Shown here one piece after another: positions 5,535 through 24,948 of a stretch of DNA of 34,341 bases; positions within the stretch are counted from its first letter, which is position 1, and each line of letters begins with the position of its first letter. The translations under genes and the position numbers were made by a program. The DNA comes from Oscillospiraceae bacterium (GTDB taxonomy: Bacteria > Bacillota > Clostridia > Oscillospirales > Oscillospiraceae). Under the pieces are notes generated by a model. It saw nothing but the letters and a program-made list of their open reading frames with translations, was not told the DNA's origin and did no database searches. Location of the stretch: NCBI GenBank assembly GCA_009783555.1, contig WRDH01000032.1, positions 1-34,341 of the forward strand, read 5' to 3'.

Positions 5535-6596
5535 TTACGGGAATTCCTTACCAATCCTTATAACAATCGCATCACCGTTATCATCTTGAAGCTCTACGGT
5601 TGTCAATGCATTTGCCATCTCATCAGTAATGCGACACAAGGTCTCTGTTTGGATATAGTCTGCCCATTGTTTTGGATAGTCTCCGGTTATTGCTATCACT
5701 ATTCTGTCCATGATGTCGCAGCCCATTTGTTTTCGGGCTTCCTGGACGTGCCTGACTATATCGCGAGCCAAGCCCTCGCTTCTAAGTTCATCTGTTATCG
5801 TCAGGTCTAATGATACTACTGTGCCGCGGTCGCCGGCTACGGGGACGTTTTCTTTTGATTGGTAGGTGACAAGGATTATTTCAGAGTCAAAGTCTTCATC
5901 TACCCCGTTGATTTTCAAAACAACCTTATCATCTTTTAGCTCATATTGACCTGACTTTACTGCTTTGATGATTTCCGGAACCCTGTCAGGATAGCGGTTT
6001 CTGATTTCATTGAAGTTCGGGTCATATTTTAGTGTCGCGATATCGCTGACATCTTTTAGAATCTCGATAGATTTGACATTTAGTTCTTCTGCAATGGTAT
6101 CACCGAACTCGGTTAGCAGCTCATTTGCTTCCGCATCAACGAAAGCGACTTTCATCATACTGAGCGGCTGACGGTTTTTGATGCTATTTTTGTTACGTAC
6201 CGATCTGGCGAGAGTAATGATGCTTTGTACTCTCTCCACCTGCAAAACCAACTCTTCGTTTTTGTATGAAAACGGTACTCGGGGCCAATCTGTTAAATGT
6301 ACTGAGTAGCCGCCTGTCAATGTTTTATACAGCATTTCCGAAATTATCGGAGCAACAGGTGCGAGCAGCTTTGTTATATTTACAAGAACATAATAAAGCG
6401 TTTCGTAGGCGTTTTGTTTATCGGCGGTCATATCAGAACCCCAGAAGCGTCTTCTCGAACGCCTGATGTACCAGTTTGTCAAGCCATTAATCAATGACAC
6501 AAGAGGAGCAACATACTTGTCGATATGATATTCATCCATACTTAGTTCGATGGTTGTTGCTTTATCATATAATTCCGCAAGAATCCATTTGTCAAG
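5535..6596 (-). pseudogene. ileS: ileS 3' part: anticodon-binding and C-terminal region after an in-frame stop
   Basis: This stretch continues the isoleucyl-tRNA synthetase reading frame directly after the TAA at 6597-6599. It starts LDKWILAELYDKATTIEL, the first helix of the class Ia anticodon-binding domain, and runs 353 codons to the normal C-terminus. The first ATG in frame is at 6539, nineteen codons in, so independent translation would lose the first helix; no ribosome-binding site stands out there. Conserved motifs such as NGLTNWYIRRSRRRFW and LTITDELRSEGLARDIVR are intact, and no further stop or frameshift occurs. Together with the upstream part the protein would be about 1040 residues, the normal size for this IleRS type. 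The break is therefore one nonsense codon, either a real mutation or a sequence error. Confidence 0.85.
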
Positions 6597-8657
6597 TTAA
6601 TTATCTGAATTAGGCTCTTTCAACTCGCCCGGATGGAATTTGTCGATATTAGCATATGAAATATAGAAGTTGCAGGCATTCCAGAACGGCAGAAGGATTG
6701 ACTGATACATTTCGGGGATACCTGAATCACTGAACAACAAATCACCTATCAGCATTGCGTTCGATTGATACATATAGAGCCTGAAAGCATCCGTTCCGTA
6801 TTTAAGCATCAAATCCATCGGGTCGGAGTAGTTTTTAGAAGATTTTGACAGCTTTTTACCATCGCCCGCGAGTATTGTACCGTGTACGATACAATTCTTA
6901 AACGCAGGCTTGTCAAACAACGCAACCGATAGCACATGCATATAATAGAACCAGCATCTTATCTGCCCTGTGTACTCGACTATAAAATCGCTCGGATAAT
7001 GCGATTCAAACCACTCTTTGTTTTCAAACGGGTAGTGCTTTTGCGCAAATGTAACAGAACCGCTCTCAAACCAGCAATCGAGAACTTCCGGTATACGGTA
7101 CATCGTACCGGTGCATTTTTTACATCTAAAAGTTACTTCGTCCATAAACTGCCTGTGCAAATCAGTCATCCGTACTCCGGATGCCTTATAGATATCATCA
7201 ATGCTTCCTAATACAACCTGCTCTGAGCATGCATCACAAACCCATATCGGCATGGGCGTACTCCAGTATCTGTTTCGCGAAATATTCCAGTCGCGTGCGT
7301 TTTCCAACCAATTACCAAAACGTCCGTGTTTTACCGTTTCGGGAACCCAGTTAATTTCTTCGTTAACTGCAAGCAAGCGATCTTTTATTTTCTCAATGCT
7401 AAAGTACCACGCATCCATTGCACGGTATATCAAAGGCTCTCTGCATCTCCAGCAATGCGGATAATTATGCTCCATTGTTCCATCCTGCACAGCCTTTCCG
7501 CTAGCGTACAGATGACGGACTATTGATGAATTCGTATCAATAACGTTTTTCGGGTCATCCTTTGAATGGAAATCAAATACATCCTCCGTAAACCGTCCCC
7601 CCGCATCAACGGGGTTTACAAACGGGATTCCGTGCTTTTTGCAAGTCCAATAGTCATCTTCACCGAATGCCGGTGCTGTATGTACAATACCGACGCCATC
7701 TTTTGAATCGACATAATCGACTGTTACTACTTTAAATGCACCTTGTGTTTTGTATTTTGCAAAATAGGGAAAAAGAGGCTCGTAATTTATTCCTGCCAGT
7801 TCCGATCCATGGCTTTTTTTTACTGTAACCGGCTCATTCCCGAATATTTTTTCGTACATTGGGATTGTATCTGTGCTTGCGACGTATATTTCATCTCCGA
7901 CTTGGATAAATGAATAGTTGATAGCCGCCCCGACAGCAAGACACATGTTTGATGGCAGTGTCCACGGTGTTGTTGTCCATGCCAGAAAGAAAACCGGTTT
8001 GCCTTCAACTTCAATATCTGCCTTGAATTTGACAATGACCCATCTGTCCTGCCTCGGACGTGTCGAGTCAGATTCTCTTGTGTCTGAAATTGATAATGAT
8101 GTCTCACATTTCATACAGTACGGCGTGACCCGGTAGTCTTTGTATATTAACCCCTTGTCATAGCATTGCTTGAACACCCACATAACGCTTTCCATAAAAC
8201 CGATGTTCATCGTCTTATATGCGCCGTCATAATCCACCCAACGCGCCATTTGCTCAACATATTTTCGCCAGGCTTCATTACTGCTCGAAACAATATCAAA
8301 ACAAGCATCGTTAAATCGCCCGATATCACTATCAATCTCGTGTTTATTATCAATACCCAATACTTTTTCCGCTTGATTCTCAATAGGCAATCCATGGCAA
8401 TCCCATCCCCAGACACGGGGAACAGAGTACCCCTTCATTGTCCAATAGCGGGCTATCATATCCTTAATAAACGATACTAGAACTGTCCCATGGTGGGGGC
8501 TTCCTGTCGGGAACGGAGGCCCGTCATAAAAAACTATTTCGCCTTTATTTTCCTTCTCAACGGATTTCTCAAAAACTTTCTCATCTTTCCAGAACTTTAA
8601 GACATCCTTCTGTATCCTTGTAAAATCCGGTTTTCCGCTCAACTCGGTATAACTCAT
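6597..8657 (-). CDS. ileS: isoleucine-tRNA ligase, N-terminal catalytic and editing part (ends at premature TAA)
   Basis: A class Ia synthetase that attaches isoleucine to tRNA-Ile in the cytoplasm. The 686 residues include the HIGH-type motif PTGSPHHGTVL (about 50-60), the CP1 editing region with TTPWTLPSN, cysteine pairs that may bind zinc (CDACSEQV and CKKC), and the KMSKS-type motif GKKLSKSSKNY near the C-terminus. This motif set belongs to the eukaryote/archaea-like IleRS branch found in many Firmicutes, which is often mupirocin tolerant. The ATG at 8657 has GGAGG upstream. The frame stops at TAA 6597-6599 just before the anticodon-binding domain, although the same frame continues perfectly behind it. 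A product ending here could not be a normal synthetase. Confidence 0.93.
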   Translation of the reverse strand: MSYTELSGKPDFTRIQKDVLKFWKDEKVFEKSVEKENKGEIVFYDGPPFPTGSPHHGTVLVSFIKDMIARYWTMKGYSVPRVWGWDCHGLPIENQAEKVLGIDNKHEIDSDIGRFNDACFDIVSSSNEAWRKYVEQMARWVDYDGAYKTMNIGFMESVMWVFKQCYDKGLIYKDYRVTPYCMKCETSLSISDTRESDSTRPRQDRWVIVKFKADIEVEGKPVFFLAWTTTPWTLPSNMCLAVGAAINYSFIQVGDEIYVASTDTIPMYEKIFGNEPVTVKKSHGSELAGINYEPLFPYFAKYKTQGAFKVVTVDYVDSKDGVGIVHTAPAFGEDDYWTCKKHGIPFVNPVDAGGRFTEDVFDFHSKDDPKNVIDTNSSIVRHLYASGKAVQDGTMEHNYPHCWRCREPLIYRAMDAWYFSIEKIKDRLLAVNEEINWVPETVKHGRFGNWLENARDWNISRNRYWSTPMPIWVCDACSEQVVLGSIDDIYKASGVRMTDLHRQFMDEVTFRCKKCTGTMYRIPEVLDCWFESGSVTFAQKHYPFENKEWFESHYPSDFIVEYTGQIRCWFYYMHVLSVALFDKPAFKNCIVHGTILAGDGKKLSKSSKNYSDPMDLMLKYGTDAFRLYMYQSNAMLIGDLLFSDSGIPEMYQSILLPFWNACNFYISYANIDKFHPGELKEPNSDN

Positions 8658-8719: not shown

Positions 8720-8735
8720 GTGTAAGTTGTCAGAG

Positions 8736-8826
8736 GTTGTCAGGGGGACGGTTCTCTTGACAAACTATGGTGAAATTTCAACATAAGTTGTCAAGAGAAC
8801 CGTCCCCCTGACAACTTATGTTGAAA
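8736..8826. repeat. compound inverted repeat of the ACCGTCCCC family
   Basis: Arms 8736-8763 and 8788-8815 are perfect 28-bp reverse complements around a 24-base loop and contain the core CAGGGGGACGGTTCTC. A second, overlapping 18-bp inverted repeat (8776-8793 and 8809-8826, TTTCAACATAAGTTGTCA) uses the right arm as its loop. The two hairpins are mutually exclusive. The element lies between the divergent ileS and nitroreductase genes. It belongs to the dispersed repeat family also found at 12242, 13065, 13711, 21390, 24253 and 33092. Confidence 0.85.
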
Positions 8827-24291: not shown

Positions 24292-24609
24292 TTATTGCCT
24301 TTCTATCAACTGTTCAACAAGTGTGCTGTTTTGAATAAAAAGATATAGTAGATTGCGAGCTGATCCATTGGGAGTATTGCGTCCAATTTCCCATGATTCA
24401 ACAGTTCGGGTCGAGACACCCATTGCGTAAGCGAATCCTCGTTGTGAAAGGTTCAAAGACGAGCGTAAACTTCTGACATCCCCGGCTGTATACTCTGGTA
24501 TTTTTAGCTCTCGAACAGACACACGCACCCTGCTTTTATCGCCCCTGCTATGATCTGCAGCTTGCTTCAAGCTCTCCGTGAGTCTCCCGTAATAATCGTA
24601 CTGTTTCAC
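24292..24609 (-). CDS. HigA-like antitoxin, XRE-type helix-turn-helix
   Basis: A 105-residue DNA-binding protein. The C-terminal half has an HTH of the Xre/HigA type, LRSSLNLSQRGFAYAMGVST followed by RTVESWEIGRNTPNGSARNL, with the typical W-E-x-G-R-x-x-P ending. The N-terminal 45 residues are less conserved and may wrap the toxin. The GTG start at 24609 follows GGAGGG that lies inside the toxin's last codons, and only three bases separate the genes. Toxin-first order is typical of higBA. It should neutralise the toxin and repress the shared promoter at 24961-24989. Confidence 0.87.
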   Translation of the reverse strand: MKQYDYYGRLTESLKQAADHSRGDKSRVRVSVRELKIPEYTAGDVRSLRSSLNLSQRGFAYAMGVSTRTVESWEIGRNTPNGSARNLLYLFIQNSTLVEQLIERQ

Positions 24610-24612
24610 CTT

Positions 24613-24948
24613 CTACCCTCCCTTAATCTCCGCTATTAACTTATTGAGCAAATCCTTTTGCTTTGAAGTTAAATCTGCTTTTACATTTTTTGGATACGCA
24701 AGCAATAGATATATATGCTCACGAACAACTATATCTATATAAATAACACGAACTCCCCCTGACTTACCACGCTCACCCACTGCAAAACGCAACTTGCGTC
24801 CGCCTGACAAATGCGGTATTACTACACCTGCTTTTGGATTTCTCAGTAGTATTTCTTCAAGATCATTTAAGTTATTATCATCAAGACCTGCATCTTTCCA
24901 GTCCTCTTCAAAAATATGAGTTCTTATGAATTCACGCTTCATTGCCAA
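24613..24948 (-). CDS. HigB/RelE-like toxin
   Basis: About 109-111 residues of the RelE/HigB superfamily of ribosome-dependent mRNA interferases. The middle contains NPKAGVVIPHLSGGRKLRFA followed by GERGKSGGVRVIYI. It is the G-x-R-K-x-R...R-V-I-Y pattern of the Gp49/HigB-2 type. The C-terminus is Lys-rich (SKQKDLLNKLIAEIKGG). Start is uncertain between TTG 24948 and ATG 24942. A promoter with an overlapping operator lies directly upstream. The pair is likely a chromosomal type II toxin-antitoxin module. Confidence 0.87.
   Translation of the reverse strand: MAMKREFIRTHIFEEDWKDAGLDDNNLNDLEEILLRNPKAGVVIPHLSGGRKLRFAVGERGKSGGVRVIYIDIVVREHIYLLLAYPKNVKADLTSKQKDLLNKLIAEIKGG

Follow-up and report, generated by a model that had tools for sequence, protein, structure and literature searches.

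How should an in-frame TAA in the middle of an essential gene be read? The question is raised by ileS, the essential gene for isoleucyl-tRNA synthetase (IleRS), in a 34,341-nucleotide stretch of DNA from an Oscillospiraceae bacterium, analysed here at its full length and called the window. The original prediction had named three readings: a sequence error, a very young nonsense mutation with a spare gene elsewhere, or recoding at the UAA. The window corresponds to contig C32 in a 2.75-Mb draft genome (G000; 79 contigs, 92.07% complete, 0.94% contaminated), and the genus comparison set comprised 19 genomes.

One gene interrupted by one stop codon

On the minus strand, the TAA lies at 6599-6597 and is flanked by ...AATTCAGATAAT and CTTGACAAATGG.... 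It is codon 687 and the single internal stop of the ileS frame at 5535-8657 (-), which has 1041 codons including its terminal TAA (1040 without it). The 686 residues before the stop (6600-8657, minus strand) hold the catalytic and editing domains (PF00133, 406.8 bits) and match profile positions 5-687 of 861 in the IleRS family TIGR00392 at 730.3 bits. The part after the stop (5535-6596, minus strand; 353 residues and the terminal TAA) resumes the same profile at position 696 and carries the anticodon-binding domain Anticodon_1 (PF08264, 112 bits) and DUF5915 (PF19302, 111 bits). At the junction there is neither shift nor loss, and the frame is identical on both sides. Because the two pieces are continuous on the profile, they belong to a single gene interrupted once in frame, as had been proposed from the letters of the window, and the open frame bears out the further proposal that the whole matches a normal IleRS of ~1040 residues. 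Read across the stop in a genome-wide search, which flagged '1 TAA', the whole gene scored 850.9 bits, above the family's curated cut-off of 621.4 bits.

Among solved structures, the best match was 8c8u (723.7 bits over residues 18-1009), which we take to be an IleRS2, while 1ffy, presumably an IleRS1, reached only 296.9 bits. Identity between the window gene and the type-1 ileS genes of the genus is 27-30%, and by these scores the window gene appears nearer to the long-type (IleRS2) enzymes than to type-1 enzymes. In 75 of the 76 aligned rows, including that of the window, the class I signature is HHGT; the remaining row does not contain that stretch. The signature falls at roughly 8479-8514 of the minus strand, in the region of codons 48-60 (coordinates approximate), and the threonine at its fourth position is found lineage-wide.

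Conservation and constraint

We aligned the window ileS with 75 relatives (at least 50% identity over >880 residues), after dropping three duplicate loci. At the 300 columns that are invariant in the other sequences, the window gene has no violations, compared with 0 in G009, 1 in G006 and 3 in G003. Between the window and G009, pN was 0.11 and pS was 0.74, with synonymous sites near saturation. Past the stop, pN was 0.230 between the window and G006, against 0.247 between G009 and G006, and is therefore not raised in the window. Neither the 300 invariant columns nor post-stop pN gave a sign of further decay or relaxed constraint, making an old pseudogene improbable. Judged by these substitutions, the gene has been under strong constraint up to the present. 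A recent origin of the stop, as originally suggested, is supported by the intact invariant columns.

Codon 687 itself encodes Gln in 61 of the 75 relatives, Leu in 5, Glu in 5, Gly in 2, Ala in 1 and Pro in 1, and is a stop in none of them; G009 and G006 have Gln and G003 has Gly. With six residue types and no stop among relatives, the position is tolerant and the stop private to the window genome. One base change from AAA, CAA or GAA had been put forward as the origin of the TAA. Of these residues the counts favour glutamine; glutamate occurs in 5/75 and lysine in 0/75. Among named records, the closest ileS sequences over residues 1-686 were those of Oscillospiraceae bacterium Emb289P3bin50 (86%) and Emb289P3bin58 (80%). 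Both are termite-gut style metagenome-assembled genomes.

Search for a second ileS

No second ileS, or fragment of one, was found in the 79 contigs of G000 (92.07% complete), and the further matches of this search were other class I synthetase-like genes. The nearest genus members with long-type ileS, namely G009 (98% complete), G006 and G003, carry one ileS each, so that descent gives no reason to expect a spare. Most other genus genomes carry the short type 1 gene. G010 has a type-1 ileS together with a divergent long-type gene (G010:C209) of 1036 codons, which shares 29.9% identity with that of the window. Two type-1 genes are present in each of G008 and G015, whose contamination is 4 and 6%. 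Neither tRNA-Lys nor tRNA-Asn was among the 41 tRNAs of G000, which indicates that the unassembled ~8% of the genome holds essential genes. A spare copy, one of the possibilities raised at the outset, is thus not supported so far, with ~8% of the genome missing from the assembly.

Defects at ileS are not unique to the window among drafts of this genus. The sole ileS of G011 (type 1; G011:C7:44300-47700) is frame-shifted, with frames of 429 and 584 codons overlapping by 49 bases, and no ileS was found in G013.

Genetic code, tRNAs and release factors

In 431,050 sampled bases of G000, 320 ORFs of at least 100 codons ended in TAA (n = 168), TAG (n = 84) or TGA (n = 68). The genes prfA and prfB are open, as are rpoC, alaS, uvrA and four further genes resembling class I synthetases. 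Apparent internal stops in prfA and prfB of G004 and in prfB of G006 fall outside the open genes. TAA as the commonest terminator, together with the open large essential genes, led us to reject general reassignment, and UAA is not a sense codon in G000. The original prediction had judged reassignment improbable because groEL ends on TAA; that terminator was confirmed, and the ORF counts, the open release-factor genes and the tRNA set all agree with the judgement.

A suppressor tRNA reading UAA had been proposed as a check. ARAGORN found no UUA or CUA anticodon among the 41 tRNAs of G000, an incomplete set, and there was likewise none among 37 tRNAs of G009, so no suppressor is present among the tRNAs detected in the two genomes. 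For G006, we considered only tRNAs with a locus read, which do not amount to a full control. G000 does have a tRNA-Sec with a UCA anticodon. In G009, a 72-base GCT tRNA called as tRNA-Ser (G009:C46 605-676) is too short for the usual long variable arm, and a normal GCT tRNA-Ser is present elsewhere in that genome.

Readthrough, restart and the upstream region

Recoding at the ileS UAA gained no positive support at codon 687. The 123 bases of RNA from the stop onward fold like their shuffles (z = 0.33; 131 of 200 shuffles at least as stable), and we rejected a stimulatory readthrough structure on that basis. The hallmark of programmed readthrough, a stop kept in relatives, was seen in 0 of 75.

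The first in-frame start past the stop is Met707 (6537-6539, minus strand), which is Met in 74 of the 75 relatives. Restarting there would skip 19 codons, six of which are invariant in relatives, and no Shine-Dalgarno-like run was seen ahead of it, in contrast to the GGAGG that precedes the genuine ileS start. A split enzyme is unlikely on these grounds.

No T-box or other Rfam leader was found in the window or at 7 ileS loci of relatives. The interval between ileS and its upstream neighbour contains a REP-like palindrome of inverted repeats (8731-8826), close ahead of the ileS Shine-Dalgarno sequence. It has 48 matches genome-wide, 24 per strand, at up to 2 mismatches (0 for the backward control), many of them paired in opposite orientation ~50 bases apart. 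A pattern search found none in the samples of G009 and G006.

A second interrupted gene in the same genome

A U32 gene of G000 also contains an in-frame TAA, at G000:C4:10628-10626 (-), a position occupied by Tyr in the five closest relatives listed. Both pieces match the model of TrhP, a tRNA uridine-34 hydroxylase, below cut-off. In the sister genome G009 the frame is intact at this place and is instead interrupted elsewhere by a TAG (G009:C3 10850-10852, plus strand), again at a Tyr position. With a pN of 0.070, a pS of 0.567 and no other decay, the gene was under constraint until recently in both genomes. A U32 gene of comparable length is missing from 8 of the 19 genus genomes, so the TrhP-like gene looks dispensable; according to the available part of PMC6599085, E. 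coli tolerates loss of trhP provided that trhO is present. The simplest account of these stops is therefore that a dispensable gene was recently lost twice. If both were errors, their location in the same gene would be a coincidence; leaky codons in both cases would form a pattern that the ileS stop also matches.

How common such interruptions are

We scanned composition over 431,050 bases of G000, 392,581 of G009 and 385,200 of G006, the latter two samples purposely including ileS and U32. These scans gave 32, 37 and 19 candidate stops, respectively. Pfam searches on ten candidate pairs identified a single interrupted gene, the U32 pair; each of the remaining nine consisted of separate genes or lacked a domain spanning the stop. 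A homology scan, which reached those parts of the samples that homologues cover, returned 28 rows with stops, of which three were accepted (ileS and U32 in G000, U32 in G009). The 25 dropped rows comprised 14 that were antisense to ileS and 11 judged by eye to be antisense or end effects. Pairing matches that lay in different frames, with filtering, revealed no frame shift in 86, 84 and 75 matched places of G000, G009 and G006, respectively.

For the conserved genes beside rpoC, we assume the gene names, except that of rpoC itself. Odd residues in these genes numbered 19 of 2939 in G000 and 18 of 2938 in G009, a weak test that faintly suggests that G000 is not visibly error-rich. No inner stops were found in the genes beside rpoC across 17 genomes; the rows with stops in that scan lay at or before gene starts, save one weak match at 56% identity. 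A family-wide search matched ileS in 362 of 400 genomes at E 1e-100, and none of the matches listed, which were the best-scoring part and came from genomes other than G000, had an inner stop.

At 24292-24948 of the window (minus strand), two small genes in the same frame are parted by a TAA. The second resembles a NadS-type antitoxin (51.6 bits, below cut-off), and the first had no NCBIfam match. This is an ordinary gene pair rather than an interrupted gene.

Weighing the explanations

The stop is truly present in the assembled sequence, and its likeliest meaning is an ordinary one. With a probability of roughly 0.6, we consider the TAA to be a single-base slip in the metagenome consensus or a base that entered from a mixture of strains. 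It would then not be a working feature, the ileS around it would be functional and serve as the housekeeping gene of an uncultured gut bacterium resembling Oscillospiraceae, and we infer that the living population would carry a sense codon at position 687. This reading is favoured because there is no decay, the stop is private (0/75), no spare ileS was found and no change of decoding is in sight; other large genes of G000 are open as well, and G011 and G013 show that ileS defects occur in further drafts of the genus. Against it stand the second in-frame stop in G000, in the TrhP-like gene, the other in G009, and the lack of an excess of odd residues in G000. The available part of PMC7024585 reports Illumina HiSeq sequencing at a mean coverage of 38.6-fold for a survey with Emb289P3-type names, and a random consensus error would be rare at that depth if the window genome stems from such a survey. 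In our judgement, a true and very young nonsense mutation comes next and is unlikely: the window copy would be a fresh pseudogene, and a second ileS would be among the genes missing from the assembly. There is space for one, given 92.07% completeness and an assembly without tRNA-Lys and tRNA-Asn, and two ileS genes do occur in G010 (type-1 plus divergent long-type), G008 and G015 (two type-1 each). However, G008 and G015 are the contaminated genomes, the nearest long-type genomes have one copy each, and G000 has neither a fragment of a second gene nor decay beyond the stop.

Lower still in our judgement, and quite improbable, is a real stop codon at which near-cognate tRNAs or an undetected suppressor allow sufficient readthrough to provide the cell with IleRS. 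A sole, in-frame and undecayed gene would be expected of it, most insertions would do no harm at a position where Gln, Leu, Glu, Gly, Ala or Pro can stand, and an in-frame UAR is also found in the TrhP-like gene of G000 and, elsewhere in the gene, of G009. However, that gene looks dispensable (absent from 8/19 genomes), TAA is the main terminator (168/320) beside open prfA and prfB, neither 41 nor 37 tRNAs include a UUA or CUA anticodon, and the downstream RNA is no more stable than shuffles. A broader version, for which there is very little probability, holds that leaky UAR codons are tolerated in the lineage, with the ileS UAA, the U32 UAA of G000 and the U32 UAG of G009 all real and partly decoded. 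Near-cognate Gln and Tyr tRNAs would decode them part-time, so that IleRS would be made without a dedicated suppressor, and loss of the wobble-uridine hydroxylase might itself contribute by altering decoding. The U32 case is the only positive evidence for this version, and thin evidence; it also argues against treating every stop here as an error. Split class I synthetases exist, and fragments of IleRS complement one another in vitro. A two-piece IleRS, in which the stop ends a first polypeptide and a restart makes an anticodon-binding piece that assembles with it, would suit a stop falling between the catalytic and anticodon-binding domains, but we hold it to be highly improbable given the 19-codon gap with its six invariant residues, the missing Shine-Dalgarno-like run before the restart and the 0/75 relatives split at codon 687. 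The chance that UAA has been reassigned to glutamine in this organism is next to nil: Gln is the commonest residue at 687 in relatives, but TAA ends 168 of 320 ORFs, five large essential genes have none, the in-frame TAA of U32 stands at a Tyr position and no tRNA for UAA was found among the 41 detected.

If the TAA is a slip, the case serves as a caution: a single wrong base is enough for an essential gene in a draft genome to seem dead. The frame on both sides together with invariant-site counts distinguishes such a slip from decay. If instead the stop were real and read through, a bacterium would have its sole gene for an essential synthetase dependent on UAA suppression, which would be surprising in a cell using UAA as its main terminator.

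Comparison with known systems

A limited literature search found nothing in print on this case. As an enzyme, the window ileS is like IleRS2, the eukaryote-like second bacterial type, in its length, its IleRS family score and its match to 8c8u. It differs in the class I signature: IleRS2 is described in the available part of PMC10485003 with HXGH or G/AXHH, and the HHGT of the window ileS conforms to neither. The reassignment screen of Shulgina and Eddy (PMC8629427), as far as its available text goes, is similar in dealing with in-frame stops at known-residue positions of critical genes, and it cautions against inferring reassignment from pseudogenes and contamination. In contrast to the reassignments screened there, one codon is affected here, and it is still widely used as a terminator. 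Premature stops also occur in essential genes of draft and metagenome-assembled genomes. Although those are usually proven by a sense allele in the reads and this one is known from the assembled sequence alone, the ileS stop resembles them in being single, in-frame, set in an otherwise normal gene and private to one assembly.
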